DNA of 56,424 nt from an uncultured Chloroflexota bacterium. Its GTDB lineage: Bacteria; Chloroflexota; Anaerolineae; Promineifilales; Promineifilaceae. Position 1 is the stretch's first letter. Each line of letters starts with the position of its first letter. The notes under the pieces are model-generated. The model was given only the letters and a program-made list of their open reading frames with translations. It searched no databases and was not told the origin of the DNA. Position numbers and translations under genes: made by a program. Below are positions 22,685 through 44,348 of this stretch, in pieces. Location of the stretch: positions 1 through 56,424 of the forward strand of contig CAADGU010000209.1 of NCBI GenBank assembly GCA_900696625.1, given 5' to 3'.

Positions 22685-22699
22685 TTGGAGGACAGATTC

Positions 22700-25600
22700 A
22701 TGTTTAGCAATTTGTCATCTGAAGAACGCTCACAAATACGTCAGAGACTTGCTGAAGGCTTTAGTTTAGCAGAGTTGAAAACCCTTACTTTTGATCTTGG
22801 CCTTGATTATCAAGAATTTCCGTACGGAGTAAAAGCCGAATTCATCCTTGAATTGATGACCCATATGGAAAGGCGTGGAAAGCTAAGTTGTCTTATTACC
22901 GAAGCGATTAGGCAGAGACCAAATCTTGACTTAGTGCCATTTCTTAGCAAATTACCAGCCTGCTCACCAAACAAAAAATATCAGGTAATCCTCCCCACTG
23001 ATCATGTTGGGGAAGCACAGATTATTTTGAAGGAATTAGCTGCACGACTCAATTTCCCTCCAGAAAGTGTAGAGTTTATTGGTGCAGCTTACGGTTCAAT
23101 GCGACTTTTAGTCAGTTTGCCTGAAACTTTCGATGATGCACTTGAAAATAAAGGAACCCTTTCGACAGAACAATATCTATTAGAATCAATCACTCCATTT
23201 GAGCAGTTAGATACCATTAGTCAAAATGCCTGGCGATATGTTGCAGAAACATCCCATAAATTGGTACAAGAAAGAAACCCTAAAAGTGTTTTATATCAGG
23301 GCCTTCCAATGAATCATGGATATTACTATCCTGTAATTCCCTGGAATGAAGCTGTTAAGGTTGTTGAGCAAAACATTGCCACACCCCCAAGTTCATATCA
23401 TAGTCCGACTGACATCAGTGAGAAGGGATTGGAAACCCTTATAGCTGATTATTTAGTTAATGGGAATCAATACATTCTTGGTAATTCTAACGATTATGAT
23501 AAGGCATTATGCCTGGATTGGGCACAGCTAATCGCCTTTTGGGAAGCCACCCAGCCCCTAACCCTGGCGGCCATCCCCGAACAGGACAAGCTGCTGCAAC
23601 GCCTGAGCGATCAAATCCGCGATAAAGGCATTGTCGAAGTGCTGCGCAAAGGCATCAAATACCAGCAGCACCGCCTCACCCTTTACTACCCCCAACCACC
23701 CCACAGCCTCAACCCCCAAGCCGTCAAAAATTATCAGGCCAACCGCTTCTCCATCACCCGGCAGGTACATTTTAGCCAACAGCGCCCCCGGCAATCGCTG
23801 GATATGGTCATTTTCATCAATGGTCTGCCCCTCATCACCTTTGAACTCAAAAACAACCTGACCACACAAAACGTCAACCACGCCAAACGGCAATACCGCG
23901 AAGAGCGTGACCCCAAAGAACCCCTGTTCCGCTTTGCCCGCTGTCTGGTACATCTGGCCGTTGATGACCAGGAAGTGTGGATGACCACCGAACTCAAAGG
24001 CAAATCAACCTTTTTCCTGCCCTTCAATCGCGGGCAGGGTTATGGCAAGCCGATCTGGGAAGCGGTCAATCATGGCAAGGGTAATCCCCTCAATCCCAAC
24101 GGTTTGATGACGGCCTATCTGTGGGAAGAAGTGCTGATCAAAGAAAGTTTGAGCGGCATTGTGGAAAAGTATGCTCGCATCATTCAGGATAAGGACAGCA
24201 AAACGGGCAAGAAAAAAGCACCCCGGCTCGTCTTCCCCCGCTTTCACCAACTGGACGCCGTGCGCAAACTGCTGCGCGACGCCCAAAAGCAGGGCGCCGG
24301 GCAGCGCTATCTCATTCAACATTCGGCGGGATCAGGCAAAAGCTACTCCATTGCCTGGTTAGCCCACCAACTGGTGGAACTGAACAGCCTCTATACCCAC
24401 CAACCCATCTTCAACTCCGTCATCGTCGTCACGGATCGGGTGGTACTCAATCGCCAAATTCGGGACACCATCAAACAGTATGCCCATGTGGAGGGGGTAG
24501 TAGCGGCCGTGCGCGGCAGCACCGAACTGGCCGAAGCCTTGGAAGCGGGCAAGAAGATTATCATTGCCACCATTCAAACCTTCCCGTTTGTCCTGGCAAA
24601 GGTGGGGGCGATGGGCGACAAAACCTTTGCCGTCATCATAGACGAAGCCCACAGCAGTCAGGGCGGTAACATCGCCGCCAAAATGAACCTGGCTTTGGGG
24701 CGGGAATCCATCGCCGAAATTGAAGATGACGAAGATTTGATCAACGCCCTGGTGAAAAACCAGAAGATGCTGCACAACGCCAGCTACTTTGCCTTCACCG
24801 CCACCCCCAAAAACAGAACCCTGCAAACCTTTGGCGTGGCGCATCCACTCACCGGCAAATATTACCCCTTCCACGTCTACACCATGAAACAGGCCATCGA
24901 AGAAGGTTTTATCCTGGATGTGCTGGAAAATTACACCACCTACAAGAGCTATTACAAAATCCTCAAAAAAGTGACCGACGATCCCCAATTTGACAGCAAA
25001 CGGGCCAATAAGCGGCTGCGCCACTATGTGGAGGGTCATCCCGACAGCATCCGCCAAAAAGCGGAAATCATGATTCACCATTTCTTTGATGAGGTGATCA
25101 AACCGAAGAAAATCGGCGGGCAGGCCAAAGCGATGGTGGTGACGGGCGGCATCATCAACGCCATCGAATACTTTTGGGCCTTTCAAGCCTATCTGCAAGA
25201 AATCAACTCCCCCTACAAAGCGATTGTGGCCTTTTCCGGCAGCAAAAACCACAAGGGGCAAGCGTATGATGAAGCCAGTCTCAACGGCTTCCCCAGCCGC
25301 GACATCGAAGAGGTGTTTGAAAATGATGAATACCGCTTCCTGATCGTGGCCGAAAAATACCAGACGGGTTATGACCAACCCCTGCTACATACGATGTATG
25401 TGGATAAGGTGCTGTCGGACGTGAAAGCGGTGCAAACCATCTCCCGCCTCAACCGTTCCCACTCCGACAAAACGGATACCTTTGTGCTGGATTTTGTCAA
25501 CAGCGCCGATGCCATCCAAAAAGCGTTTGACCCGTTTTACCAGACCACCATTCTGAGCGAAGGGGCCGACTTTGACCGCCTCAATGATTTGCAAGATGCA

Positions 25601-26344
25601 CTGGATGCCTTCCAGGTCTACTCGGCGGAACAGGTGCAAGCCTTTATGTCCCTCTTCATACGCGGAGCCGAACGGGACACACTTGATCCCTTCCTGGATG
25701 CCAGCGCCCTCATTTACCGGGATAAGCTGGATGAAGATGAGCAGATTGATTTCAAGACCAAAGCCAAATCCTTTGTGCGCCTCTACCAGTTTTTAGCGCA
25801 AATCCTGCCCTTCGTGGATGCCGACATGGAGAGCCTGAAAACCTTCCTCAAGCTGCTGCTGACCAAGCTGCCGGCACCGGATGATCCTGATTATTTGAAG
25901 GGAATTTTGGAGAGTGTGGATTTGGATAGCTACCGGGTGGAGCATGAAGCGACGGTGCATATCCTGTTGGAAGGAGATAAGGAAATTGACCCCATCCCGA
26001 CGGAGATTGGCGGCGGCCGTTATGTGCCGGAACTGGATTTGTTGAGCCATATTATTGCCGATTTTAACCAGCGTTTTGGCAATACGACCTGGGGCAGTGA
26101 TGAAAAGGTGACACGGGATATTTTTCAGGATTTGGCGGAAGAGGTAGCCAGCAGCGAGGAGTATCAACAGGCCAAAGCCAACTCAGACCGCCAAAATGCG
26201 CGGATTGCCTTTGAGAAGATGCTGGTCACGGCCGTGCAAAAGTACATCTATACCCGCACCGACTTCTACCGCGATTTTACCAATCAGCCAGAGGTAAAAA
26301 GTTTTCTGGTGAACGAGTTGTTTCGGTATGATTATGATGGGTGA
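22700..26344 (+). CDS. hsdR: type I restriction endonuclease HsdR with N-terminal EAD7-like domain
   Basis: A 1214-aa product; the ATG at 22700 follows GGAGG at 8 nt. Residues 1-75 match the effector-associated domain EAD7 pattern (FSLAELKTLTFDLGLDY, then MERRGKL). A small alpha/beta domain follows (about 93-165; VEFIGAAYGSMRLLVSLPE) of the kind that accompanies such adaptors. From about residue 210 the protein is ordinary HsdR: nuclease region with FELKNN near 385, SAGSGKSYS at about 541, DEAHSS near 647 and later helicase motifs. Codon usage changes sharply near 23520, from A/T-ending to C-ending codons, so the N-terminal part was joined from another source. EADs mediate homotypic recruitment in bacterial conflict systems. 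ATP-driven DNA translocation and cutting are expected. Confidence 0.9.
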   Translation: MFSNLSSEERSQIRQRLAEGFSLAELKTLTFDLGLDYQEFPYGVKAEFILELMTHMERRGKLSCLITEAIRQRPNLDLVPFLSKLPACSPNKKYQVILPTDHVGEAQIILKELAARLNFPPESVEFIGAAYGSMRLLVSLPETFDDALENKGTLSTEQYLLESITPFEQLDTISQNAWRYVAETSHKLVQERNPKSVLYQGLPMNHGYYYPVIPWNEAVKVVEQNIATPPSSYHSPTDISEKGLETLIADYLVNGNQYILGNSNDYDKALCLDWAQLIAFWEATQPLTLAAIPEQDKLLQRLSDQIRDKGIVEVLRKGIKYQQHRLTLYYPQPPHSLNPQAVKNYQANRFSITRQVHFSQQRPRQSLDMVIFINGLPLITFELKNNLTTQNVNHAKRQYREERDPKEPLFRFARCLVHLAVDDQEVWMTTELKGKSTFFLPFNRGQGYGKPIWEAVNHGKGNPLNPNGLMTAYLWEEVLIKESLSGIVEKYARIIQDKDSKTGKKKAPRLVFPRFHQLDAVRKLLRDAQKQGAGQRYLIQHSAGSGKSYSIAWLAHQLVELNSLYTHQPIFNSVIVVTDRVVLNRQIRDTIKQYAHVEGVVAAVRGSTELAEALEAGKKIIIATIQTFPFVLAKVGAMGDKTFAVIIDEAHSSQGGNIAAKMNLALGRESIAEIEDDEDLINALVKNQKMLHNASYFAFTATPKNRTLQTFGVAHPLTGKYYPFHVYTMKQAIEEGFILDVLENYTTYKSYYKILKKVTDDPQFDSKRANKRLRHYVEGHPDSIRQKAEIMIHHFFDEVIKPKKIGGQAKAMVVTGGIINAIEYFWAFQAYLQEINSPYKAIVAFSGSKNHKGQAYDEASLNGFPSRDIEEVFENDEYRFLIVAEKYQTGYDQPLLHTMYVDKVLSDVKAVQTISRLNRSHSDKTDTFVLDFVNSADAIQKAFDPFYQTTILSEGADFDRLNDLQDALDAFQVYSAEQVQAFMSLFIRGAERDTLDPFLDASALIYRDKLDEDEQIDFKTKAKSFVRLYQFLAQILPFVDADMESLKTFLKLLLTKLPAPDDPDYLKGILESVDLDSYRVEHEATVHILLEGDKEIDPIPTEIGGGRYVPELDLLSHIIADFNQRFGNTTWGSDEKVTRDIFQDLAEEVASSEEYQQAKANSDRQNARIAFEKMLVTAVQKYIYTRTDFYRDFTNQPEVKSFLVNELFRYDYDG

Positions 26345-28722: not shown

Positions 28723-29283
28723 TCATAGTCCAGGTGCCTGGTGGCGGCCGGTCATATTCAGCCGGTATTGCACCATTTCTGCGCTCGCCCCGAAATGGCG
28801 GGCTATTTCCTCGCGGGGCATCTCCTTGCCGATGGCCCAATCCAGACCGGGGCGTGTAATTTGCAGGCAGCCGCCCAGATAAGTTGCCTGTTCTTCATCT
28901 TCAGGATGATAACTCTGGCGTAAAATAGGCAGGTCAGTCTGGATCAGGATGGGCCGGTGGCCCAGAAGCAGATGCGCCAATTCGTGCATCAGGTTCGCTT
29001 CATGGCGTACGGCCGTGTGGCTGGGATTATAGATGATAATGGGTGAATGTTCAGGCACGGGAATGGTGACGGCCGACCAGCCGCTATCCCCTGTGGTCAC
29101 CAATGCCATAATCATGGTCGCGTCAAAATCCGGGATGGCATCAGGGGCTAACAAGGGAATGTGCAAATGCGCGGCCAGCCGGTCGGCCGGTAAGGGGTCA
29201 TAAGCATACAAACCCAGCTTCCGCCGCCAATGCACAGCCTCATTCTCGCACCACTGCCTGAATTCAACTCCCGTCGTATTCAT
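28723..29283 (-). CDS. ImmA/IrrE-family zinc metallopeptidase
   Basis: A 186-aa product with the HExxH zinc motif in HELAHLLLGH at about residues 100-109, characteristic of ImmA/IrrE (peptidase M78). Members cleave a partner XRE or DdrO-type repressor on receiving a damage or signalling cue. It is the last gene of a leftward operon xre - helicase - immA and starts 6 bp after the helicase stop. The XRE partner is the first gene of the same operon. This pairing suggests induced derepression of both divergent transcripts. Confidence 0.85.
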   Translation of the reverse strand: MNTTGVEFRQWCENEAVHWRRKLGLYAYDPLPADRLAAHLHIPLLAPDAIPDFDATMIMALVTTGDSGWSAVTIPVPEHSPIIIYNPSHTAVRHEANLMHELAHLLLGHRPILIQTDLPILRQSYHPEDEEQATYLGGCLQITRPGLDWAIGKEMPREEIARHFGASAEMVQYRLNMTGRHQAPGL

Positions 29284-29289
29284 CGCCGT

Positions 29290-31407
29290 TTAGACCATAC
29301 TGGTTTTTCCCACCACAACATCCCATAAGAGGGTATTGTCATCCCGTTGCATAGCATGGCGACACCAGTTCACATCCGCCAAAATTATCAACTTGCCCCG
29401 TGCCCTGGATATAGCGACATTGACTAACCTGATGCCCGCATCGCCACGTAGTAACTTCCCCAAATTCTCGCGCCCAGGGCCATCCACAATATCAAATATC
29501 ACCACGTCGGCTTCGCTGCCCTGAAATTGATGGATTGTTCCTACCTCAACGTGTTGCTTCATACCTCTATTCTTTAACTCTTCTTTTATTAGCTTGTATT
29601 GCGCCCGGTATGGGGTAATGATGGCAATGGAAATGTTACTGCCTTGTGACGCAGCTCTCTCTAATATAATCTGGGCGAAAATCACTCCCAGGAAAGCCGA
29701 TGTTCGGTTTTGCCAGCTTTTGGAAGCCCTTTCACAACCTACATTCGTATCAGATTTCCCCATGTTCAGAATAAAGACGCCCTGACCTTCGGCCGGTGGT
29801 AAGAAGCGTAATTGTCCGACGCGAGATTCATCTACTGCGTTGTAGACCTCTGGATAAAGGTGTTGGATCACACTCCAAATGTCCGAAATGCAGCGTCGCT
29901 GACTTGTAATTCGCGCCAGGCGTTTATCTTCAATCTGAATATGTCTTCTGTCACCTTTCCCAATGGACAATTGGGCAAAATCATAAGCGTCATAGCCCAT
30001 CCAATAATCTGTTTCTTCATCGGGGGCTGGCCCTTCCTCGTACACCGGCCCAAGTTGGCGAGGGTCTCCAGCCAACAAAAATCGCTGCTTCGCCAGCGAA
30101 CTTAAATAGAGACACACAGCCGGGGGTACCATTGTGACCTCATCAACCAGCACCGTATCCCATGATTGTGCAATAATGGGGCTGGTTGGCATGTAGGCTT
30201 GGGTGGTTGTGGTCGCCACAACCAGACATTGCTGCATATGGGACAGCACTAAATCTTTGAGTTGTTCTTGAAGTTCTAGCAGTTCGGCGCGCATGAGAGC
30301 CAGCCGCTCCTCTTGGACTTCTTCTCCTTTGGTTGCGGCTTGAATGGTGCTTGCCAGCCAGGAAATTTGGGAACTGACTGTCTCTTGCTCCATTGACCCC
30401 AGTAACTCCGAGCGCGAAAGAATCTCTGCCTTACGAGGATAACCATATCGCAGTATGCGCCGCTGCGAAAGCAAACCACGATGTTCGCTATTTTCAAGTT
30501 GGCTCACCAGTTGAGACAAGGCTACGTCTACGGCCACATTCGAGGGGGCGACCAAAAGAATCCGGCCTTGAGGTTGTTGTTTGATTAAACGAAGCATAAG
30601 ACTGGCAAGGCAGAATGTTTTACCGGCACCTGGTGGCCCCCACAGAAAACGAGTCCAGGGAGTAGCTGCGGCAGCGAGCATAAGCGCCACGCGGCCAGAA
30701 TCTTCGTTAGCAATGATGTAACTAGTTTTTGTATCTGGCGCAAAGAAGACCTGGCCCAGGGGGGGTATCTGGTTTAGTTTCTGGATTGATTCAGCCAGTT
30801 GGTTCAATAGGAAAGCGCGATCTATGTATAACTGCAACGGCAATTGCGCTTGTTCGATGCTATTTTCTAGCGAAACGTAAAGAAGATTATTTTCACTATC
30901 TTGACCCACAATACGGCCGTTGACCCATGTCCCATATCCGTATGAAGCAACAACAACAGGCGCTTCATTCGGAATAAGTGTGTCGCCTAATTCAACCTCA
31001 ACAGCATGAACATATTTCTTTTTTGTCTTCCCCACGCTGTAGATATTCTTGATCAGGAATCGTAATCTCTCAAGGCGGCCTGCATACCGCTTGACAATTG
31101 TCGCCACCTGTTCAGTAAGAGGTACAGGGCTTGTGGCGACATCTTGGGCCAGCCACTTCCCTTTTTCAGTTAAGTTGACAACACGGCCGTTACGCGCTAT
31201 CTGAAAGAAGGGCCTGGCTTCAGGTAAGTCAGCTAACGATTTGAGCAAATCAGCCAATTCTTCTGAGCCTTCCTGACGTTTGGCGACCGCTTCCCAACGA
31301 ATCCATACCTCTCCTTTTTCCCGTTGGAGTTCTCCAATGGTCTGAGCCATGTGCCAGATACGTCTCTTTGTCTGCTCATCTACGCTCATCTGATCCAGGA
31401 TGCTCAT
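29290..31407 (-). CDS. SF1B (Upf1/Dna2-like) helicase
   Basis: A 705-aa product. Helicase motifs in order: Walker A GPPGAGKTF near 257, Walker B-like VDEVTMVPP near 421, GDPRQLGPV after it, then ITPYRAQYKLIKEEL, TIHQFQGSEADVVIFDIV and NVAISRARGKLIIL. These define the AAA_11/AAA_12 superfamily-1 group that unwinds DNA or RNA 5' to 3'. The N-terminal 230 residues are unrecognised and may be a regulatory or beta-barrel domain. It lies between xre and immA, an unusual place for a helicase, and diverges from the pPIWI-RE operon. It may be a working part of that system. Confidence 0.88.
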   Translation of the reverse strand: MSILDQMSVDEQTKRRIWHMAQTIGELQREKGEVWIRWEAVAKRQEGSEELADLLKSLADLPEARPFFQIARNGRVVNLTEKGKWLAQDVATSPVPLTEQVATIVKRYAGRLERLRFLIKNIYSVGKTKKKYVHAVEVELGDTLIPNEAPVVVASYGYGTWVNGRIVGQDSENNLLYVSLENSIEQAQLPLQLYIDRAFLLNQLAESIQKLNQIPPLGQVFFAPDTKTSYIIANEDSGRVALMLAAAATPWTRFLWGPPGAGKTFCLASLMLRLIKQQPQGRILLVAPSNVAVDVALSQLVSQLENSEHRGLLSQRRILRYGYPRKAEILSRSELLGSMEQETVSSQISWLASTIQAATKGEEVQEERLALMRAELLELQEQLKDLVLSHMQQCLVVATTTTQAYMPTSPIIAQSWDTVLVDEVTMVPPAVCLYLSSLAKQRFLLAGDPRQLGPVYEEGPAPDEETDYWMGYDAYDFAQLSIGKGDRRHIQIEDKRLARITSQRRCISDIWSVIQHLYPEVYNAVDESRVGQLRFLPPAEGQGVFILNMGKSDTNVGCERASKSWQNRTSAFLGVIFAQIILERAASQGSNISIAIITPYRAQYKLIKEELKNRGMKQHVEVGTIHQFQGSEADVVIFDIVDGPGRENLGKLLRGDAGIRLVNVAISRARGKLIILADVNWCRHAMQRDDNTLLWDVVVGKTSMV

Positions 31408-31460
31408 TTTGTTACCCGGTGTACTCTAACCCAAAAGTGGTGGTCGTCTATAGAGGTTGG

Positions 31461-31829
31461 TTATGATGATTGCGGAATTTTACCAGCCCGTACTGCCCGG
31501 TAAGCGGCCTTCACCATCGTCGCCAGGGCCGTCGCCGTCTCCTGGTCTAGTTCTCTGTCTGCCCGTAAATGAACTTCAATCAGGTCGGGTGTATCCAGTT
31601 GTGGATTGTCTGCTTCGCTGGTATTCTTAAAGAAATGTGCGGGATCAACTTCCAGCCAATCGCAAAGCCGTAAATAAGTATCCATGTCCGGCAGTTTGCC
31701 ATTCTCTACACGGGATAACGTGGAAGGGCTAATATCGCCGATTTCTTGGGCGACCTGTCGTAAACCGGCCTCACCTCGTTTTGTGCGTACCATAATGGCT
31801 AACTGCTGACTATCAACGTAACTTGTCAT
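31461..31829 (-). CDS. XRE-family transcriptional repressor
   Basis: A 122-aa product. The helix-turn-helix domain spans about 8-65, with GLRQVAQEIGDISPSTLSRV as the DNA-binding core, followed by LCDWLEVDPAHFF. The C-terminal 50 residues are acidic and may be the dimer or protease-contact part. It heads the leftward operon with a helicase and an ImmA/IrrE protease. Two matched 16-bp operators lie in the 127-bp region that it shares with the pPIWI-RE operon. It probably represses both directions and is inactivated by the protease. Confidence 0.9.
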   Translation of the reverse strand: MTSYVDSQQLAIMVRTKRGEAGLRQVAQEIGDISPSTLSRVENGKLPDMDTYLRLCDWLEVDPAHFFKNTSEADNPQLDTPDLIEVHLRADRELDQETATALATMVKAAYRAVRAGKIPQSS

Positions 31830-31844
31830 TGTTCACCTCAAAAC

Positions 31845-31860
31845 GTTTCACGTATGAAAC
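31845..31860. promoter_or_regulatory. operator O1 for XRE repressor
   Basis: GTTTCACGTATGAAAC: 6-bp arms GTTTCA/TGAAAC around CGTA. It lies 15 bp upstream of the xre start, overlapping where xre transcription should begin (a TATACA-like -10 lies just upstream on the minus strand). This is a typical autorepression position. Confidence 0.65.
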
Positions 31861-31873
31861 AGTGTATATCCTA

Positions 31874-31902
31874 TTGCACAACTCACTCTCGTGTTGTATT
31901 AT
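31874..31902 (+). promoter_or_regulatory. sigma-70-type promoter of the pPIWI-RE operon
   Basis: TTGCAC (31874-31879), exactly 17 bp, then TATTAT (31897-31902). This is a close match to the housekeeping consensus. Transcription would start near 31909, upstream of the REase gene, with operator O2 immediately downstream. Confidence 0.65.
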
Positions 31903-31914
31903 GTATTGTACATC

Positions 31915-31930
31915 GTTTGATTGGTGAAAC
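31915..31930. promoter_or_regulatory. operator O2 for XRE repressor
   Basis: GTTTGATTGGTGAAAC has the same 16-bp length as O1 and shares GTTT, the A at position 6 and the whole TGAAAC half-site. It covers the expected transcription start zone of the pPIWI-RE operon, so binding should block it. Confidence 0.55.
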
Positions 31931-31956
31931 GCAAGAGCTAAGAGGTTGGTTACAAG

Positions 31957-33096
31957 ATGAACAACGATTTATTGATCTATCTGGCCGTTGGCCTGCTGGC
32001 CTATGAAAAACAGGAGTATGGCTACCCCTACCCGCCCACGTTGCAACAGGGGTTCAATCGCCTGGCCGGGCATTATTTGGAGCAGGGCAAAGAGCCACCG
32101 GGAACGATGACGGCCGTGTGGCAGCTTTTTCACCGGCCGCTCAACCAGTGGTGGCCGGAAGGGGCGTTGCCTGCTGAACTAGACGGTGATTACCCCCTGC
32201 TTTACGATGATCGCGTAGATGAGCAGATCGTGGAGTATCTGGCCGAGTTGCCGGTGACGGCGGCAACGGCCGTTTCCCAGTTGGAAGCCATTTTAGATAA
32301 TCAGCTTGTCCAAACCCTGTTGGAAGGGCTGCGCGAGCTATACCACCAACAGCCGGAACGGGCACAACAGGCATATGAAAAAGTGCGCCGCTTTTTGATC
32401 GAGCATCCGTATACCAGCAACGCGGCGCTCATTCGCCACCTGGGAACAATCCGTGATGTTGACCTGACGCTCATGCAAAAGATGTATGAACCGGCCGTTG
32501 ACAAACCGTTGTTCATGCACGAAGGGCACTACTGGTTGTGTCCTCATTGTGGCGGACTGTTACGGTGGCGCGACGGCCGTGCCCGCTGCGCCAAACCAGG
32601 CGTTTGCGGCCGTCTCTACCCGGACTACGGCGGGCGACAACCACTTCGGCCAGAAGCAGACCTCATGGCCCTGAAATGGAGTATTCATGCCCGCACCTGC
32701 ATCCCCGGTTTGTGTGAGATTGCCCTGTTTGACACCCTCAACAGCGAACCTTATCACAATCACGTGGCCGTTGCGCTGTGGCCGGGCGTAGATCGATATG
32801 ATTTGCAACTGCGTTTTAACGATGGTGAAACATGGGCCGTAGACGTGAAGGATTATAAAAACCCACAGCAGTTGGGCCGCAAAATTGCCACTGATACCCT
32901 GTATGACGCCGAGCCAGCCTTACGCTGGCAGCAAGGCTTTTACGTGGTGCCTTTCTATCGCACCGATCACCACGCAACCGATATGCAATATCTCGCCAAA
33001 GTGAAAAAGGCTGCCGGGAAGCTGCCCCCAAATATCACTATTCTCACTGAACAGGAGTTTCTGGACGCAGTACAAGTCAGAATCAAAAAGCGTTGA
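31957..33096 (+). CDS. pPIWI-RE-associated restriction-endonuclease-like protein
   Basis: A 379-aa product. A zinc ribbon at about 195-215 (CPHCGGLLRWRDG, then CAKPGVC) is followed by a PD-(D/E)XK-type core, with GETWAVDVKDYKNP near 290-303 supplying the acidic and Lys residues. The N-terminal 190 residues are helical. This matches the REase partner described for pPIWI-RE systems, which always travel with a DinG-type helicase and the pPIWI protein; both follow immediately here. Expected to cut DNA selected by the pPIWI-helicase complex. First gene of the operon, with promoter and operator upstream. Confidence 0.8.
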   Translation: MNNDLLIYLAVGLLAYEKQEYGYPYPPTLQQGFNRLAGHYLEQGKEPPGTMTAVWQLFHRPLNQWWPEGALPAELDGDYPLLYDDRVDEQIVEYLAELPVTAATAVSQLEAILDNQLVQTLLEGLRELYHQQPERAQQAYEKVRRFLIEHPYTSNAALIRHLGTIRDVDLTLMQKMYEPAVDKPLFMHEGHYWLCPHCGGLLRWRDGRARCAKPGVCGRLYPDYGGRQPLRPEADLMALKWSIHARTCIPGLCEIALFDTLNSEPYHNHVAVALWPGVDRYDLQLRFNDGETWAVDVKDYKNPQQLGRKIATDTLYDAEPALRWQQGFYVVPFYRTDHHATDMQYLAKVKKAAGKLPPNITILTEQEFLDAVQVRIKKR

Positions 33097-33106
33097 GGAG
33101 GAGGCC

Positions 33107-36100
33107 ATGTACGACACGAATTGGTATAGGAAACTACGCGACAAAATATCTCAGATGGACGGTACGAATGAGTTACGTGGCCGGGAAACCACATTGTTGC
33201 AGGTGGAACTGGGTTTACGCTTGCTGGAAAAGCTGGATTTGCGGGATGAACCTGTCACAGTTTTGTGGGTGCTGCTCAGTGGTTTACCCATTCCTGACCC
33301 TCGTCTAAAACGGTTCACGGTTGAACAGAAACGCATGGTCGCCAATGCCCGGTTATTGTTGCCCTTCCACAGCCGGTTTGGCTGGGAAGATGCTTTACGC
33401 GATTACAGTTATGTGCCCGAACATTGGCGCGCCTACCGGGTAAACAGCGAGAATCTGGATCGGCAACTGGTGGATAATGCCCGGATAGACGGCAGCTACG
33501 GGGAGCGGTTAGTCGTCTATGATGAAACGCTCGACGGCCGTTTGCCCTACCGCCAACAAGTCCTTCCACCAGCGCCACTTGGACAGGCTGTTTTCTTCGT
33601 TATAGATACGCCTGATGGCCGCCAGGAGGCAGCGGTGACGCTGCCCGCAGCGTTAACAACCACGCTGTTAGATCGGCCAGCATCATCCTTTTCTCCTCGT
33701 GAGAGACGGCCGTTGACCGTCACCCATCTGGAAATTCAGGCAGCCGCCCATCTCCTGGATGAAAAAGAACAAAAACCCAATTGGGTAAAACGGGCCGAGC
33801 AATTTGTCCGCCATGCCGTCGTCAATGCGGATGGCTCATTGGGCGCAGTAAACGCACATCCGCTGGAATTTAATGGCATGACCCATCTGGTTGGCATGGT
33901 TGGATCAGGCAAATCCACTTTAATGAGCCTGTTGGCGGCCCACATTGCCACCCAAACAGACAGACGTATTACGCTGGTGGTAGGCGATACGATGACGGCT
34001 TTAAGCCTGGCGGATAAGTTCAACCAACTCCTGGCCGTAAGTCACGATAGTCCAGTAGCCGTCGCCTTGTTGGGGCGTACCACCCGCGACCAGCACTTGC
34101 GGCAACTGTATCATGCCCGCGACTTTCATCCAGATCACACCGGGTTACGCTGGCTCAGTACCACCTGCCCTTTACAAGGGTACGTTAAAGCAGATGAGTT
34201 CCCCGTTCCAGTTGCAGTCGGCCGTGAACCCTGCGAAAGTCTGCTGGAACCGGAGAGTAAGGCCAAAAAATCACGCGGCCGTTACAGTTGCCCCTTGTTC
34301 TCCGTCTGCCCGGCGCAGCAAAATTATCGTGATATGCCAACGGCCTCTATCTGGATTACCACGCCTGGCGCATTGGGCGTAGCCAGCGTACCTGTTCAGG
34401 TTGACGCCAGACGAATCAAACTGGGCGATCTGATTTATGAACAGTCTGATCTTGTGGTGTTTGACGAAGTAGATACCGTCCAGGAATGGTTTGACAATTT
34501 GCTGGCCCCCGAAGTCAAACTATTTGATTCGCAAAGCGGCGGCGTATTGGACGAACTGGATATAAATGTGGCCGATACCTGGCGTAGCAACCGGGCACGT
34601 TCTGGCGCGGATCGCCGTTGGCGCAAAGCTGAACGGCACGCCGTTGACGCCGGAGCCAGTATCCTCAGCCAGTTGACGCAGATACAGCTTTTGCCGCAAT
34701 GGATTCAGCGCAACTACTTCTCGGCCTTAAGCCTGTTCTTTAAGCTGTCGCGTCGTTTGCTGGCGCTGCCTGATTACGCACAACAAGAGGATGATCCAGC
34801 CCAGGTGGAAAAGGCTGGTCAGCTATTTGAGATTTTCAAGGGCTTTATTGCTGATGACTTTCTGCAACTGCCCCAGACGGCCGATCCGCAGCATGATCCC
34901 GTTCACCGGCTGGCTGATCTGGCGCGGCGTCTGATTGCGGTAGGCGATTCACTGCAACACCCTGAACGGCTGGCCGATTGCGCTGCCTGGATCGAGGCGT
35001 TTGTACCAGACTGGTCAACGACGGCGCTGGCCTTACAAACACAGCGCCAGGAATGGGAAGACCGGCAACAAAAATCTCGCCGTCCACCGGGCGAAGAACC
35101 CCGTCCCGATGATCTGGACACATTGGCTCAACGTCTGGATTTTGCCCTACAAGTCGCCATTTTAGATCGCAATATGCGGGCCGTTTTCTATGAATGGGAA
35201 CAACACGAGGCCACCACCACGCCCCAGCCAACCTATCGCGCCCCACGCCACCTGACCCGCTTGTTGCCCGTGCCGCCAACAGGGAAATTGTTTGGCTCCT
35301 ACTTCTCCCAAGATTTGTTGCCCGATGGAGACGGGCCGGTCGCACAAGAGCGGTCAACCAGGGGCAGCCGCCTCTCCATGTTTGGCTACAACAGTCTGGG
35401 ACGCTGGTATGTGCGCCATTACCATGAATTACGCACGGCCGTAGATGGTCAACCGGGGCCACATGTTCTGGCGATGTCCGGCACATCCTGGCTACCAGAT
35501 TCATCCCGGTGGCATTTTGAAGAATTCCACGCCCGGCCTCAGGGCATCCTGCAAGCGGCCGAAGAGATGACGGCCGCCATTAGGCAAAGCCGGTTTACTT
35601 TCCTGCCGCAATATATTGAGGATGCGGATCGCAACCTTCGTCCGTTGCGAGTTTCTGGTCATTCCGACAAAAAGGGCCAACTGCGGCAGATCATACGCCG
35701 TCTGATGGGTGTGGGGTCGGGCCGCAATCATTTACTTGAGATGTTGAACGAATTGACAGCCAATAATGACGAATTATGGCAAGACCGTGCCCGGCTGCTG
35801 TTGTTGGTCAACTCTTATGACCAGGCCGATACTGTAGCTAAAGAGATTTGTCGCTATGCCGGGGATTGGAAGGATCAGGTCTATGCGTTGGTGCGTAATA
35901 CCGATGAGGGGGATGATGAAGTCATGGGGCCATCATCTCTACAACGGCTAAACATAGAGCAATTTTGCGAAACAGGTGGCAAAGTTTTGGTTGCCCCCTT
36001 GCAGGCAATTGGACGGGGTTACAACATCCTCAACAAAGCCGATAAAGCGGCTTTTGGGGCTATCTATTTTCTGACCCGCCCCATGCCTCATCCACACGAC

Positions 36101-36553
36101 ACACAGGCAATTGTGCGAGAACTCAACTTCAAAACCATGAACTGGTGCCTAGACGAGCAATTCTCAGCCTGGCAAGCAGGCACGCTCTACGAAAAAGGGT
36201 TGGCATTGCGTCACGCCGCCAGCCAGCAGTGGCGCCAGGTGGAGCAGCGCAGTACCTACCGGCAACTGAATGAGGAAGAAAGGTTGGATTTGGCGGCAAC
36301 AACGGCCGGCATCATTATCCAGGCGTGTGGTCGCCTCCTGCGCGGCGGCGTTCCGTTTTATGGCTTTTTCGTGGATGTTGCCTGGGCGCCGGGTTATGCG
36401 GAGAAACGCGAGCCAGCCACACCACAAACCAGTTTATTAGCTGCTGTCATTCATGTATTACAGCAATATACAGAGGATGCAATTGGTGAAACATTGTATC
36501 AGTCACTTACCATCGCGTTAGCCAACACCGAGAACTTTGATTACAGTTTTTAA
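33107..36553 (+). CDS. DinG/XPD-like helicase of pPIWI-RE system
   Basis: A 1148-aa product; the ATG at 33107 follows GGAGGAGG. Walker A GMVGSGKST at about 264-272, DEVDT near 452, and a motif VI-like QACGRLLRGG near 1073. Between Walker A and B are four Cys residues (about 354, 375, 394, 401: TCPLQG, EPCES, YSCPLFSVCP) in the position of the iron-sulphur cluster of XPD/DinG helicases. It unwinds nucleic acid, presumably to give the pPIWI protein a single strand. Longer than stand-alone DinG. It starts 10 bp after the REase and ends 13 bp before the pPIWI gene. Confidence 0.88.
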   Translation: MYDTNWYRKLRDKISQMDGTNELRGRETTLLQVELGLRLLEKLDLRDEPVTVLWVLLSGLPIPDPRLKRFTVEQKRMVANARLLLPFHSRFGWEDALRDYSYVPEHWRAYRVNSENLDRQLVDNARIDGSYGERLVVYDETLDGRLPYRQQVLPPAPLGQAVFFVIDTPDGRQEAAVTLPAALTTTLLDRPASSFSPRERRPLTVTHLEIQAAAHLLDEKEQKPNWVKRAEQFVRHAVVNADGSLGAVNAHPLEFNGMTHLVGMVGSGKSTLMSLLAAHIATQTDRRITLVVGDTMTALSLADKFNQLLAVSHDSPVAVALLGRTTRDQHLRQLYHARDFHPDHTGLRWLSTTCPLQGYVKADEFPVPVAVGREPCESLLEPESKAKKSRGRYSCPLFSVCPAQQNYRDMPTASIWITTPGALGVASVPVQVDARRIKLGDLIYEQSDLVVFDEVDTVQEWFDNLLAPEVKLFDSQSGGVLDELDINVADTWRSNRARSGADRRWRKAERHAVDAGASILSQLTQIQLLPQWIQRNYFSALSLFFKLSRRLLALPDYAQQEDDPAQVEKAGQLFEIFKGFIADDFLQLPQTADPQHDPVHRLADLARRLIAVGDSLQHPERLADCAAWIEAFVPDWSTTALALQTQRQEWEDRQQKSRRPPGEEPRPDDLDTLAQRLDFALQVAILDRNMRAVFYEWEQHEATTTPQPTYRAPRHLTRLLPVPPTGKLFGSYFSQDLLPDGDGPVAQERSTRGSRLSMFGYNSLGRWYVRHYHELRTAVDGQPGPHVLAMSGTSWLPDSSRWHFEEFHARPQGILQAAEEMTAAIRQSRFTFLPQYIEDADRNLRPLRVSGHSDKKGQLRQIIRRLMGVGSGRNHLLEMLNELTANNDELWQDRARLLLLVNSYDQADTVAKEICRYAGDWKDQVYALVRNTDEGDDEVMGPSSLQRLNIEQFCETGGKVLVAPLQAIGRGYNILNKADKAAFGAIYFLTRPMPHPHDTQAIVRELNFKTMNWCLDEQFSAWQAGTLYEKGLALRHAASQQWRQVEQRSTYRQLNEEERLDLAATTAGIIIQACGRLLRGGVPFYGFFVDVAWAPGYAEKREPATPQTSLLAAVIHVLQQYTEDAIGETLYQSLTIALANTENFDYSF

Positions 36554-36566
36554 TGGGAGAAAAGTT

Positions 36567-39287
36567 ATGCCTACACCACAAGCACCAATCTTACCGGCCC
36601 GATTTCGTCTGAATGAGGAAGCGCTGCGTGATTTTCAGGTCAGCGTCCTGGAATTTCCATTTACGGATGCGATCTATCGTTTTCTTGACGGAATAAAGCA
36701 GATCAGAAGCAACGGGAAAATATGGGACAACGAGTATCCTACCTGGCGCACTCTAAACGATGTACTTTTGCTACTAACGCCAACGCTGACCCATGCGTTT
36801 GAAAGACAGTGGGACGCAGAAAGGGGAATCAATATAAGACAGATGGTAGTCATAGGTGAACAACCGGAGTTACGGCCGTCGCTCGATGACCTGACGACGG
36901 TTATCCAACCCTGGTTAAGTCAATGGGTTGCATCGGCTTTCAAAAAAGAAATTGATGGTTCAGGGCGGTATCTGTATGAAGAATTGATGGGTAGCCTTGA
37001 GACACCAGAGGCAGATTGGCAGGTAGTAAGCGCCTACGAATTGTGGCAATCGCCGAATAGAGATGCCGGGTTAAGTTATCGCGCCATACCCAGTCTTATT
37101 TGCTCGTTGTTGAATGAGCAAACGTCTATGATTTTCGATACCCCTGTCAAATGGCGTTTGGCCCATGATCGAAATGGGTTTGTCATCGTCAGCGAACCAC
37201 AATCCTCCGAGTATCTTGATGATTATGGCAGACCTGGTGAGGGCACCTTTGCCTATAAACTAGAATTTCGCATCCAGACCCAAGCCGGGCGCAATGCTCC
37301 CCGTTGGCTGCATCTTTATGTGCGTTGCCAGCGGTATGCGGACAGACCCATCAGCAAAGTCAATTACGGCCGTGACGTGTCCTTGCTCATTGGCACAGAT
37401 AAACCGCGATTAACAGGTTGGGAGCGAAGTGGCAATCTGGTAGTGGTTACCGTATCTGGGAAACCGGGCGGTTTCCGGTGGCAAAAAGGTGTGCCAGAGT
37501 TGCTGCAAGTTCTCAAAGCGCGTGAATTGGTTCAACCTGATGAAATTTTCGCCCAACCAGACCACCATCGTCAACATGACGGCGACGAATACTACGTGAT
37601 TTATGCCGAAGGGATGAAATATGGGATCGGCCCTGGTCGTACACATGGGGTCAAAACAGGTTACAGTTTAGGGGAGCGGAGCGCAGTTGTGGGGGAAGTT
37701 GCCTCTTTACTGCAACGTGTTGCTTCACCAAGTTTGGCATTAGCGGCCGATCAAGAGGTGCGAAAAAGCAAACGCCCTATTTTCATGCGCACTGCCCAAG
37801 ACTTAAAGAAGTCCCATAGCAGTGAAGACGGGCGTTTGCAAATGCAGCAAATGGTCTTGGAGGCACTGCGCCGTGCCTTGCGTGGTCAACCTCTCCAGAT
37901 CACCATTTGTGCATCTACCACAACAACACAACATGCCCTTCTTCAAGGTGTCCGCGATCTGCTGTGTTTGTCGGAAGGTGAAGCAGCACCCGAAAGAATC
38001 CAAATTATTCTTACAGAGTTGAGTGGCGATTTAGGCAACGAAATAGATTGGGATACCGCCTCAGATATAAAGCGACGCAAGCTGGCTCTTCAAGACAAGT
38101 CAGCAAAATGGCAAGAATTTCTGTCATCATACCGCCCTCAACGTGGGTATCACTTGGCTCTAGTTGAAATTGGGGAAATGTCCTCAGACCGCCAGGACAT
38201 CAAGGGGGCTGTACGCCAATCGTGTGTCAATTTGAACATTGCGTCGCAAATGATTAACCCTATCAAACCGACAGCTAAACTGAGCGACCGTGACAAGGGT
38301 CGTATTCAGAACGCGGTGGCAGACCTGCTCCTGCGGCAGACAGGGGCCTTGTTTGGCCTGCCCGCAGACCTTTATCGGATGGCTGGTTTACCAGAAAATA
38401 TAGCGGGACAGTTAACGGCCGTTGCGCTCTATCGTCGGCAGGCCAATCGAACGAATACACGGAAAGGTATGAATTTTGCCTGGGCTGTACGATTATTACC
38501 GGATGGTCAAGTCGAAGGACGTTTGAATGACGGAAAGGGATGGCGGGCCTACCTTGATGCTACTCTTGCCATAGGCAAAACATTCCTGGCGAACGCCCCA
38601 TATGAAACGGCACAAAATCAAAAAATCTTTGCAGCAGATATATTGACTGGGACTAAATCACCCACGCTCGCTCTAGTGGACGCCATAAGCTGGCGTTCAA
38701 CCAAGTTATTATCACAATTGGCGAATGATCGTATGAAACACGATGAGCTAGATTTTGCCGATACTCCCGGCTACAACAAAATCTATAAATTACCTGATCT
38801 TCCCAGGTTACGACTGATGCGTATACGTGAAGTGGGTTCTAAAGGGGAAACGCCCCAATATGTGTCCACACAACACGGCGATTGGCATAGCATAGAAACC
38901 ACTGAGGAAATTACCTCGGTCTTTGGGGCAGGGTTTAGGGACATTTACGCTGGTGATGAATTTATCCACTATCTCTCTATTGGCCGCTTACCCAAGACAG
39001 CCAGTCGCCATCAGCAAAACAAGCCAAAGGGCAGGAACCTGGCAAAATCGGATTTTGGCGGCAGTGTCGGCTTCCGGCACCAGACAGCTATAGAGTTTGT
39101 CCCTTTCTTTTTGCAGTCTGATGATGATCCACTGGGCTGGTGTCGCGCCGCCCACTATCTGCGTTTTTCACCTGCATGGGATGGGGGGAACACGATTCGG
39201 CCGTTTCCACTGCATCTGGCGCATACGGCCGTTGAGGACATGATGTGCTTGCTGGGTTATGGGGCAGAAACAGATGAAGTAGATTGA
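36567..39287 (+). CDS. pPIWI-RE protein (prokaryotic PIWI-type, DUF3962/DUF3893)
   Basis: A 906-aa product; the ATG at 36567 follows GGGAGA. Length, position after the DinG-like helicase, and C-terminal features identify the pPIWI-RE family. The N-terminal module is followed by an RNase H-fold PIWI domain over about the last 350 residues, including ALVDAISWRSTKLL, HYLSIGRLPKTASR and HYLRFSPAWDGGNTIRPFPL. The family was predicted from genome analysis to act as nucleic-acid-guided restriction. Whether this copy keeps catalytic residues cannot be settled by eye. Base composition is a little lower in GC than the helicase gene. Confidence 0.82.
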   Translation: MPTPQAPILPARFRLNEEALRDFQVSVLEFPFTDAIYRFLDGIKQIRSNGKIWDNEYPTWRTLNDVLLLLTPTLTHAFERQWDAERGINIRQMVVIGEQPELRPSLDDLTTVIQPWLSQWVASAFKKEIDGSGRYLYEELMGSLETPEADWQVVSAYELWQSPNRDAGLSYRAIPSLICSLLNEQTSMIFDTPVKWRLAHDRNGFVIVSEPQSSEYLDDYGRPGEGTFAYKLEFRIQTQAGRNAPRWLHLYVRCQRYADRPISKVNYGRDVSLLIGTDKPRLTGWERSGNLVVVTVSGKPGGFRWQKGVPELLQVLKARELVQPDEIFAQPDHHRQHDGDEYYVIYAEGMKYGIGPGRTHGVKTGYSLGERSAVVGEVASLLQRVASPSLALAADQEVRKSKRPIFMRTAQDLKKSHSSEDGRLQMQQMVLEALRRALRGQPLQITICASTTTTQHALLQGVRDLLCLSEGEAAPERIQIILTELSGDLGNEIDWDTASDIKRRKLALQDKSAKWQEFLSSYRPQRGYHLALVEIGEMSSDRQDIKGAVRQSCVNLNIASQMINPIKPTAKLSDRDKGRIQNAVADLLLRQTGALFGLPADLYRMAGLPENIAGQLTAVALYRRQANRTNTRKGMNFAWAVRLLPDGQVEGRLNDGKGWRAYLDATLAIGKTFLANAPYETAQNQKIFAADILTGTKSPTLALVDAISWRSTKLLSQLANDRMKHDELDFADTPGYNKIYKLPDLPRLRLMRIREVGSKGETPQYVSTQHGDWHSIETTEEITSVFGAGFRDIYAGDEFIHYLSIGRLPKTASRHQQNKPKGRNLAKSDFGGSVGFRHQTAIEFVPFFLQSDDDPLGWCRAAHYLRFSPAWDGGNTIRPFPLHLAHTAVEDMMCLLGYGAETDEVD

Positions 39288-39424
39288 CAATAGAACTCAT
39301 GCACCTTTGACCAGAGTAAATTCACATCAAGAATTCTTACGGATTTCTTATTTGACTTGTTGTGTAATTTCAACAATACTTGCATCAAGCATAGAACTTT
39401 TGGGCTAACAAAGTGGGGAATGTA

Positions 39425-41095
39425 ATGCCATCATTGTATAACACCAGCTACTTGCGACTGAAAGACGAGGATGAGTTTGAAGAACTCCTTCGAGACATCT
39501 GTGTCTTAGAATGGAATGATCCTCGGACAGAACGAAACGGCCGACGGGGGCAACCACAAAAGGGAGTAGATATTTACGGTCAACCGGCCTGGTTGGATGG
39601 AGCATTTTACGGTGTACAGTGTAAGTTGCGACCATCACAAAAGCAGTTAAGCAAAACCGAGATAATGAGCGAAGTAAAGGAGGCACGAGGCTTTCCTCAC
39701 AAGTTAAGCAAACTGATCATCGCCACTGATACTCCCAAAGATAACAAACTTCAAATAATGGTTGATAACATCTCAGCACAAGAAGTTAGTAGTGGGGGAT
39801 TCGCTGTAGAAATCTGGTTTTGGCCCCAAATTGAGCGACGCATCGGGACATACCCATCCATTTTTGCAAAGTATTATTATGAACAGATCGCCAGCTTAAC
39901 TAATCTGGATGTTCTTACCAGGCTCATTGATCGTCCCTTGCAGGTTTATTCAATCAATTATCCCTTTTCACCAGATGTCACTCCTCTCGAACTTGGCTTG
40001 CGGTTTCGGGGCATTCAAACGATCAAACATGTAACTACACCTGTTGAAGCAAAAGCAGTGGCCTACAGCGATCAGCTACCTGACGGATTAGTCTGTCAAA
40101 TCGAGAGAATTGACGAGACTAAAGAAGGGATTGAACAACTTCGGCTTGTCGCCGATTTAATCAGTCTTACACGACTGCTAGAATCATCATGCCCTTTTGT
40201 TATTCTGGCACCGCTTGATCAGGGGGAGCGATTGCTTCACCAACTGGAGGCAATGGGGGGACTGTCCGACAGATTTCTACTATTAGATTCGGCTCTGCGT
40301 CAAGATGAGATTTCAAATCAGGTGTTTTTTACCGTATTTGACTATGGGTACACACGTCGGAGTAGAATTCGCACAGTTAACATATCTACAAGGACTAGAC
40401 CAAACTCACCGGCCAGTGCGCTATTAGATATAGATTGGCAGTCACATTTGGACACAGAACGTCATCCCTCAGTTCAGGACTGGAATGAACTCTTTGTACC
40501 AGCTTTGAAAGTTATTACAACACAATTATGTGGCTTGAAAGAAAGTACGCGCCTACAAATTGACTGTAGTCTCCCGCTGCCTGCCTCCATTGCTCTTGGC
40601 TTCTACTTTAATTTACGAGTAGCGACGATTGGGGTTTGGGCACGCAGAATGGGAAGGAGTGAGACAAAATACTTATGGTTATCCGATGGGAAACCTGTTG
40701 AAACCGAAATAAGAGAAATATGGCATAGACGTGGAGCAAGTAATTCCCGTTCAGCGATCCTGGAACTTACTAGCGGCTCCTCCATTCACACTACGGTCGA
40801 ACATTTTGTTCAGACACAAGTACTATCAGCCGATCTGTGGCTTGAGGTAAATTTGCCACTCAACAATAATGACACAGGAATAGATGAAGCCGTAGCAATT
40901 GCATATGCCAACTGGATTGGCAATCGTATGCGTGAGTTTACTGAACGTGGAATATCCGACACACACCTATTTCTGCGACTACCTTCTGCGCTGTGTGTTT
41001 TGATAGGACAAAGACTTTTGGCATGTGGTCGTATCCACTTGTACTGGTTTAACAATAACCGCTATTCGTATCAGTTTGCTTTTACTTTAGCGTAA
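39425..41095 (+). CDS. cap4: CBASS effector: PD-(D/E)XK nuclease fused to SAVED sensor (Cap4-like)
   Basis: A 556-aa product. The ATG at 39425 has GGGGA upstream and replaces an in-frame GTG that lies in the Shine-Dalgarno. Residues 15-130 are a restriction-endonuclease-like domain with KGVDIYG (Asp 49) and GVQCK (Gln 65, Lys 67), an Mrr-like D...QxK site. The C-terminal half is a SAVED domain, ending with HLFLRLPSALCVLIGQRLLA and a RIHLYWFNN segment typical of that fold. SAVED binds cyclic oligonucleotides and switches on DNA cleavage. First of four CBASS genes. AT-rich, with almost no ACGGCCGT. Confidence 0.88.
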   Translation: MPSLYNTSYLRLKDEDEFEELLRDICVLEWNDPRTERNGRRGQPQKGVDIYGQPAWLDGAFYGVQCKLRPSQKQLSKTEIMSEVKEARGFPHKLSKLIIATDTPKDNKLQIMVDNISAQEVSSGGFAVEIWFWPQIERRIGTYPSIFAKYYYEQIASLTNLDVLTRLIDRPLQVYSINYPFSPDVTPLELGLRFRGIQTIKHVTTPVEAKAVAYSDQLPDGLVCQIERIDETKEGIEQLRLVADLISLTRLLESSCPFVILAPLDQGERLLHQLEAMGGLSDRFLLLDSALRQDEISNQVFFTVFDYGYTRRSRIRTVNISTRTRPNSPASALLDIDWQSHLDTERHPSVQDWNELFVPALKVITTQLCGLKESTRLQIDCSLPLPASIALGFYFNLRVATIGVWARRMGRSETKYLWLSDGKPVETEIREIWHRRGASNSRSAILELTSGSSIHTTVEHFVQTQVLSADLWLEVNLPLNNNDTGIDEAVAIAYANWIGNRMREFTERGISDTHLFLRLPSALCVLIGQRLLACGRIHLYWFNNNRYSYQFAFTLA

Positions 41096-41120
41096 AGTCT
41101 GGTGCTGAGGAGTAAAGATA

Positions 41121-42176
41121 ATGACTACAATGGATGATCTGTTCAAAGAGTATCTCCATCGAATTGAACCATCGCCTCAAGCCGTAAAAAGAGCGGCTGA
41201 ATCCCACGGCCCCCTTCGTGAAGACCTGGAAGCTGACAAGGAATACGGCCCTTTTGTAGCGAACACGATGCTTTCAGGCTCTTACGGGCGGGATACGACT
41301 ATTTTCGGCATTAAAGATGTTGATGTTATTATCAAAACCACTTTTTCATTGACCGATTTATGGGAACGAAAGAAAGATGAAGAAACAGAGCAGGAATGTT
41401 TGCTCCGACTGACGCGAGAAGCAATCGAACGTACTGATCGGGCCGCCGGTACAAAAAAGGCCAGGCGCTCAATTCATGTCATCTTGCCTGAAGACAGTGA
41501 GAATGACTTGCCAGAGCTAACAATGGATATTGTTCCAGTGCGTATCCAAAGTGGCACAGATATAGACCCAATGACAATTTCTGACTGTGAATCGAGTCAA
41601 TGGTTTAATACATACCCAAACACACAACTTTCCGACGGCGTGAGGCGCAATAATCGTAGTACAGTTATTAGTGATCGTCACAATTACAAACCCCTCGTTA
41701 AAATCTTCAAAGCCTGGAAAAGGGCAAACTACCAGCGACAAAAAACACCAAAAGGATTCATCTTGGAATGTTTAACGGCTAAACATCATAATCCCTCAGC
41801 ACAACATTGGATTGATGCTGTTCACGATCTGTTCAAGCACATTTGCGATGAATGGCCCGACCCCGAAAACCTGCCAAGCTACCCTGATATTCCAGAGGTG
41901 CCCGATGTATCTGATTCGTCGCCGCACATGATCCCAATTGCCAAGACAAGAGAACAAGCACAAAAGGTACTTAAAAAATTACATTCCCATCTTGAAATCA
42001 TTGAGCAAGCAATGGAAGAAGCAGAGGAAGATTTGACTAAAAGCGCAAAAACTTTAAGGCGTGTTTTTGGTGATGATTGTGATGTCATTTGCTTCCCCTT
42101 GCCTGAAGATTTAGAAGAAAGTAATCGCAAACAGAAAAGTAGAAGTGATGTGCGAGAAGCACCACCCTTTGCCTGA
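41121..42176 (+). CDS. CD-NTase cyclic-oligonucleotide synthase
   Basis: A 351-aa product; GAGGAG lies 8 nt before the ATG. Nucleotidyltransferase motif LSGSYGRDTT (Gly53-Ser54) followed by DVDVII (Asp66, Asp68) and a third acid in LTMDIVPV (Asp136). All catalytic residues are present. On phage infection it should make a cyclic di- or trinucleotide that activates the SAVED effector. The clade and product cannot be fixed by eye. The C-terminus ends APPFA, a free small residue suited to conjugation by Cap2, whose gene begins 10 bp downstream. Confidence 0.92.
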   Translation: MTTMDDLFKEYLHRIEPSPQAVKRAAESHGPLREDLEADKEYGPFVANTMLSGSYGRDTTIFGIKDVDVIIKTTFSLTDLWERKKDEETEQECLLRLTREAIERTDRAAGTKKARRSIHVILPEDSENDLPELTMDIVPVRIQSGTDIDPMTISDCESSQWFNTYPNTQLSDGVRRNNRSTVISDRHNYKPLVKIFKAWKRANYQRQKTPKGFILECLTAKHHNPSAQHWIDAVHDLFKHICDEWPDPENLPSYPDIPEVPDVSDSSPHMIPIAKTREQAQKVLKKLHSHLEIIEQAMEEAEEDLTKSAKTLRRVFGDDCDVICFPLPEDLEESNRKQKSRSDVREAPPFA

Positions 42177-42186
42177 TTTGTAACTC

Positions 42187-43881: not shown

Positions 43882-44348
43882 TAAAATCCTACAAGATTTC
43901 AGATGAAGCGTTTAGGTTCGTTGTTTCGGAAAGCGCCCATCATTTTCCAAATGAGACGGGGGGAATTCTGATTGGAAAAGTTGATCATGGCAAAGTAATA
44001 ATCCAAAAGGCTACTGGCCCTGGCCCAACGGCCCATCATACCCCTGCTAGATTCAAAAGAGATGGCGAGTTTAGCCAGCAAGTTCTTGAGGCCGCAGTGC
44101 AAGATTCTGGTGGCAAATATGATTACATTGGGGAGTGGCACTCCCATCCCTTCAATTCAGAACCAAGCCTGGTAGATACCAAAGCGATGAAATGGATTGC
44201 AACTAACGAAAAATATGCCATTTCAGAGCCAGTGTTGCTCCTATGTATCGCAGTTGGTTTTCACAAGTGGGAAGTTCGTTGCTACTCACTTGTACGAAAA
44301 AGATTGAAACTTTTGAAATCTATACCTCATGATCGCACAGAAGGATGA
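43878..44348 (+). CDS. cap3: CBASS Cap3, JAMM/MPN isopeptidase
   Basis: A 156-aa product overlapping cap2 by ATGA. Complete JAMM zinc site: Glu26 in PNETGG, then HSHP (His88, His90) and Asp100 in EPSLVD. Cap3 removes conjugates made by Cap2 and so resets or tunes CD-NTase activity. Its presence with Cap2 makes this a type II CBASS arrangement with a nuclease-SAVED effector. Last gene before the recombination site. Confidence 0.92.
   Translation: MIKSYKISDEAFRFVVSESAHHFPNETGGILIGKVDHGKVIIQKATGPGPTAHHTPARFKRDGEFSQQVLEAAVQDSGGKYDYIGEWHSHPFNSEPSLVDTKAMKWIATNEKYAISEPVLLLCIAVGFHKWEVRCYSLVRKRLKLLKSIPHDRTEG

Follow-up and report, generated by a model that had tools for sequence, protein, structure and literature searches.

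The 56,424-nucleotide stretch analyzed here (the window) is contig CAADGU010000209.1 of an uncultured Chloroflexota bacterium (assembly GCA_900696625.1), and it contains a complete pPIWI-RE defence triad. Pfam and PADLOC identify the three triad genes in order on the plus strand: a Y-domain/restriction endonuclease (REase) gene, a DinG-type helicase gene and the pPIWI-RE gene itself. Genes for an XRE repressor (xre), a superfamily 1 (SF1) helicase and an ImmA-like zinc protease (immA) are transcribed divergently from the triad, and two GTTTCA-N4-TGAAAC sites lie between the operons (Table 1). An earlier reading of the DNA, made from its sequence alone, had described a leftward xre/SF1 helicase/ImmA operon facing pPIWI-RE, two 16-bp sites at 31845 and 31915, and a TTGCAC-17-TATTAT promoter ahead of the triad. 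All of these features were found, with the two sites exactly as claimed and the protein families confirmed by Pfam and PADLOC.

Table 1. Features of the xre-immA/pPIWI-RE region, in window coordinates.
Feature	Position	Strand or location	Remarks
immA-like M78 zinc protease	28723-29283	-	186 aa; Pfam Peptidase_M78 3e-14; proposed repressor-cleaving role; HELAH at residues 100-104
SF1 (Upf1/Mokosh MkoA-like) helicase	29290-31407	-	705 aa; AAA_11/AAA_12; MkoA 2.2e-55 over positions 430-1090
XRE/HTH_3 repressor gene xre	31461-31829	-	122 aa; HTH_3 1.7e-8; CapH/DdrO/ImmR-like role proposed
Operator O1, GTTTCACGTATGAAAC	31845-31860	xre leader	12/12, 0 mismatches to GTTTCA-N4-TGAAAC
pPIWI-RE operon promoter TTGCAC-17-TATTAT	31874-31902	+	from sequence; same position in L030 and L038
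Possible xre promoter TTGCGT-18-TACAAT	31934-31905	-	from pattern; spacer contains O2
Operator O2, GTTTGATTGGTGAAAC	31915-31930	early transcribed region of the pPIWI-RE promoter, inside possible xre promoter	11/12, 1 mismatch
pPIWI-RE Y domain + REase gene	31957-33096	+	pPIWI_RE_REase 1.1e-25; pPIWI_RE_Y 2.2e-11
pPIWI-RE DinG-type helicase gene	33107-36553	+	PprDinG 1.1e-141; pPIWI_RE_Z
pPIWI-RE gene (X, MID, RNaseH domains)	36537-39287	+	RNaseH_pPIWI_RE 6.9e-26; PprPIWI 7.6e-60

Searches with PF13032 matched, besides the window genome, one of 98 relatives and 12 of 400 genomes of the phylum. We enlarged the set of loci by taking bigger stretches, by scanning genome contigs with a DinG alignment and by searching 386 cyanobacterial genomes; a single pPIWI-RE protein used as query in the contig scan gave no match, whereas the DinG alignment did. 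The window falls into a subclade of 15 loci, together with L030 and L038 (Ktedonobacteria; L038 is the cultured Thermosporothrix hazakensis), L035, L036 and L037 (Anaerolineae), and nine cyanobacterial loci (L031-L034, L039, L040, L106, L107/L108 and L109). This grouping of Chloroflexota and Cyanobacteria is supported 100/100 in the DinG tree. XRE and ImmA homologues lie adjacent to, and divergent from, the Y/REase-first triad in 14 of the 15 loci, and the pair was found in none of 11 outgroup triads. When presence of the pair is mapped on the DinG tree, one change suffices, compared to a mean of 8.9 for shuffled labels; the 14 pair-carrying loci on their own receive modest support (73/54). 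The sequence-only reading had named a pair lying far from pPIWI-RE in relatives as one outcome that would speak against it, and comparison of the neighbouring genes showed the reverse. A repressor-protease pair next to an immune operon and transcribed away from it, with operators in the intervening DNA, is also the arrangement of CapH and CapP.

Three cyanobacterial loci have broken Y/REase, DinG or PIWI frames next to an intact xre-immA pair (L033, 8792-13468; L040, 6379-9595; L109, 4506-10801), reflecting either effector-gene decay or sequencing errors. Scans of viral contigs with DinG and with the window helicase recovered relatives of neither, and thus show no phage-borne copies. Plasmid relatives of DinG are at most ~30% identical, and neither of two cyanobacterial plasmid triads inspected has an annotated xre-immA pair beside it.

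The putative operators are conserved with the pair. A perfect GTTTCA-N4-TGAAAC site was reached in 0 of 300 shuffles of the window intergenic region, and the looser GTTTNA-N4-TGAAAC has just one further occurrence in the 6.95-Mb genome besides the two window sites. Across the 13 other xre-immA loci, which were not used to define the motif, the summed best mismatch is 30, whereas dinucleotide shuffles give 55.6 ± 2.7 and none of 2000 did as well; the motif ranks first among 120 with permuted arms. A subset of nine representatives gave the same result, and a scan of all 6-nt palindromic arms returned the GTTTCA-N4-TGAAAC register at the top. The operator is therefore a phylogenetic footprint, and the concern that it might not be conserved in related loci is not borne out. 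L108 also carries GTTTCACTTATGAAAC just before xre, at an O1-like distance from the gene.

The position of the operator relative to predicted promoters suggests how it might act. L030 (TTGCAC-17-TATACT) and L038 (TTGCTC-17-TATACT) have a window-like pPIWI-RE promoter followed by an operator, and in most cyanobacterial loci the operator overlaps the -10 element (TTGACA or TTGACG, a spacer of 17-18 nt, TATGNT, then ATGAAAC). By itself, the promoter pattern does not exceed chance expectation (a scan of the region gave 5 promoter-like hits vs 4.0 expected), but the window pPIWI-RE promoter recurs at the same place in L030 and L038. ATTGTA follows the operator within 3 nt in 9 of 14 loci, compared to 0.002 expected. 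Because ATTGTA is the complement of TACAAT, it is plausibly the -10 element of a leftward promoter. The TACAAT of the window lies on the opposite side of O2, which sits in the spacer of that possible promoter. With the operator joined to a minus-strand -10 element, or O2 lying within that of the possible xre promoter, a single repressor on the DNA could block transcription in both directions.

All 14 ImmA proteins contain the HExxH motif, and E130, a candidate third-ligand glutamate, is invariant in the 11 that were aligned. The AlphaFold2 (AF2) model of the window ImmA (pLDDT 85.6) has as its best fold match Thauera CapP (7t5t; Z 12.8, rmsd 3.6, 150 residues), followed by PprI/IrrE (Z about 11), so the protein is predicted to be an M78 zinc protease with a CapP-like fold. 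The XRE N-terminus is a standard helix-turn-helix (HTH); DdrOC is a weak sequence match to the XRE profile, and the CapH N-terminal domain (7t5u; Z 7.4) is one among many HTH fold matches. The C-terminal half of XRE is conserved across the loci.

Together, these results make it likely that xre and immA form a CapH/CapP-like repressor-protease switch dedicated to the pPIWI-RE defence operon of this subclade. The genes, their adjacency and co-inheritance, the conserved operators, the promoter layout, the intact protease motif and the CapP-like fold of the model are all read from sequence; by analogy with characterized systems, we infer DNA binding, cleavage, a single-stranded DNA (ssDNA) signal and an effect on immunity. 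XRE dimers would bind the GTTTCA-N4-TGAAAC sites between the divergent promoters, such that occupancy of O2 blocks the pPIWI-RE promoter and probably that of xre-immA as well, with O1 contributing autorepression. The protease would stay idle until it receives a signal, most likely, in line with CapP and PprI, ssDNA produced by DNA damage or by a replicating phage. It would then cut the C-terminal region of XRE, opening both promoters so that the REase, DinG and pPIWI-RE proteins are produced, and newly made XRE would reset the switch once the signal ends. Since repressor and protease have been inherited with pPIWI-RE across two phyla, the operon is probably shut down as long as no signal of damage or infection arrives. 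The sequence-only reading had predicted a signal-induced rather than constitutive system with the helicase as a further component. Adjacency in 14 of 15 loci and the recurring operators favour the dedicated, switchable control, and the helicase drops out of that prediction.

Several observations weigh against this interpretation. L035 carries a winged-HTH gene instead of xre-immA, and L036 lacks the operator even though its pair is divergent. Five loci (L033, L034, L039, L040 and L109) have three operator mismatches each and are not significant singly, and the two-mismatch site of L037 appears once the xre start is moved to an internal Met, which makes it dependent on the choice of start. In its favour, the identity of XRE+ImmA correlates with that of DinG (Mantel r 0.86, 0 of 5000 permutations as high), but this correlation may partly reflect shared vertical descent and therefore shows co-inheritance, not interaction. 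The ImmA profile matched no sequence in the PDB, which is why the fold comparison was used. At 186 aa, the protease is smaller than PprI and than CapP, which has 278 residues in 7t5t, and its activating signal may therefore differ from theirs. The C-terminal half of XRE, the proposed cleavage region, modelled poorly.

If xre, the helicase and immA were instead a single module, the helicase would be a fourth working component that makes or senses ssDNA, for example. Its motifs are intact and its gene lies inside the switch operon, 6 bp from immA, so it would be co-induced and may have a local role. However, it is missing from the other 13 xre-immA/pPIWI-RE loci, one of which (L031) has an unassigned open reading frame overlapping the xre-immA junction. 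Among 249 genomes of the class there was no close homologue, and the helicases recovered from 12 subclade genomes were all distant and encoded elsewhere than at the locus, the best with 34% identity over the core. It is also not a Mokosh system, in that it matches only part of the 1112 positions of MkoA and has xre and immA as operon neighbours. A plasmid of Nostoc sp. HK-01 (plasmid2, AP018320.1, L114, 7235-18877) does carry a pPIWI-RE triad, from another clade, with a divergent SF1 helicase ~1.2 kb away; the first gene of that triad is annotated as a Fis-family regulator. We treat this proximity as chance, because in Aulosira the counterpart of that helicase and the triad are carried by separate plasmids. 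We therefore rejected the helicase as a conserved component and consider a fourth-component role very improbable. Insertion into the switch operon is the best explanation for the gene: a Mokosh-like helicase gene would have entered between xre and immA in this genome and come under the same induction while remaining outside the conserved system.

The window also encodes an HsdR-like type I restriction protein that begins with an effector-associated domain (EAD7/EAD1; 22685-26344). Beginning 125 bp past the pPIWI-RE gene, on the same strand, is an operon of the cyclic oligonucleotide-based antiphage signalling system (CBASS; SAVED effector, CD-NTase, Cap2 and Cap3; 39413-44348), which is followed by an integrase gene (44485-45330). 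CBASS is the classical CapH/CapP client, and the switch could govern a longer unit of pPIWI-RE plus CBASS, with CBASS as its true target here. The four CBASS genes share the strand of the triad and the gap between the two operons revealed no terminator, but that gap contains promoter-like sequences and the CBASS genes differ in G+C content (44-45% vs 50-55% for the triad). Moreover, the relatives examined keep xre-immA without CBASS beside the triad and have QatC, cas genes or unassigned genes downstream, which makes CBASS a very unlikely target. The integrase gene bears on another explanation, in which xre-immA belongs to an integrated element or is left over from a toxin-antitoxin pair, and came to lie beside pPIWI-RE by hitch-hiking in a defence island. 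Such elements commonly encode XRE and ImmA proteins, and both window proteins match RmrA/spr1629 antitoxin models, although the matches are weak, partial and far below cut-off. Unlike HTH-M78 toxin-antitoxin systems of that type, which combine the two domains in one antitoxin next to a toxin gene, XRE and ImmA are two separate proteins, and the window has no recognized toxin gene adjoining them. The pair is adjacent to the triad in 14 of 15 loci from two phyla and diverges in parallel with it, and both operons share an operator, which renders hitch-hiking extremely improbable.

Two subclade loci adjoin CRISPR-Cas genes. In L036 (JAUIAP010000051.1, 1-19746; the same locus as L017), the xre-immA/pPIWI-RE cassette lies inside a type I-E locus in the order cas3, cas8e, cas11, cas7, cas5, cas6e, cassette, cas1e-cas2e and an array of >30 repeats. 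In L037 (JADZBY010000069.1, 8951-10459), which is of a different lineage, the pPIWI-RE gene is followed, 27 bp further along its own strand, by a type I-B cas8b. It is conceivable, though unlikely, that in this subclade the pPIWI-RE systems are immune operons whose induction is licensed by a protease that senses ssDNA, with the cassette built into CRISPR-Cas loci in some lineages. Such placement would suggest that Cascade makes the R-loops or targets on which pPIWI-RE acts.

The window ImmA branch appears to be specific to pPIWI-RE. Its profile matched four of 292 cyanobacterial genomes, in each case at the pPIWI-RE locus, and the two strong matches (>250 bits) among 301 Chloroflexota genomes are likewise pPIWI-RE loci. 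Seven weaker Chloroflexota matches (57-98 bits; L130-L136) lie elsewhere and are all xre-immA pairs as well. Their neighbours include DISARM DrmA/DrmB (L130), ThiF/E1 genes (L131 and L133), type I restriction-modification genes (L132), a CBASS cyclase (L134) and a weakly STAND-like protein (L135). The wider family thus looks like a re-used controller of defence operons, with one branch tied to pPIWI-RE.

Almost nothing is known of the expression timing, the triggers or the targets of pPIWI-RE triads. Conservation of the switch suggests that the system is silent until signalled, and its phenotype could therefore be hidden in uninduced cells. Taking away the repressor or its operators would turn the system on, which offers a direct handle. 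The controller type is already known, and its dedication to pPIWI-RE is provisionally the new part: the literature searched, which did not extend to the neighbour lists of the original CapH/CapP study, contains no description of an xre-immA pair dedicated to pPIWI-RE.

Similar pairs control other kinds of client. In ICEBs1-type elements, the ImmR repressor and the ImmA protease are encoded by separate genes, as are the two window proteins, but they control excision and transfer of the element, whereas the proposed window client is a defence operon. TnSmu1 provides an ImmR-like case (PMC10233336). The PprI/IrrE-DdrO system of Deinococcus also pairs an M78 protease with an XRE repressor and resembles the window proteins in fold and in the weak XRE-DdrOC profile match; however, PprI is larger and DdrO runs a dispersed DNA-damage regulon, whereas the window sites are confined to essentially one intergenic region. 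In the relevant passages of Burroughs et al. 2013 (PMC3702460), three-gene pPIWI-RE systems have the same strict order of REase, DinG helicase and pPIWI-RE, with gene ends close or overlapping, but their HTH domains are fused to the REase protein, in contrast to the separate, divergent XRE-ImmA pair of the window. CapH and CapP (Lau et al. 2022, through PMC13373217 and PMC10904395) are described as controllers of CBASS, DISARM, Pycsar and Bub operons, and in both CapH/CapP and PprI/DdrO cleavage by the protease relieves repression. The window pair resembles CapH/CapP in encoding an HTH repressor and an M78 zinc protease beside an immune-operon promoter, in having CapP as its best fold match, and in having distant relatives that flank DISARM, CBASS and ThiF/E1 genes. 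It differs in its small protease, which is 16% identical to CapP over aligned residues, and in its client, the pPIWI-RE triad, and would thus widen the range of bacterial immune systems under CapH/CapP-type control to include a PIWI-based one, found in two phyla.

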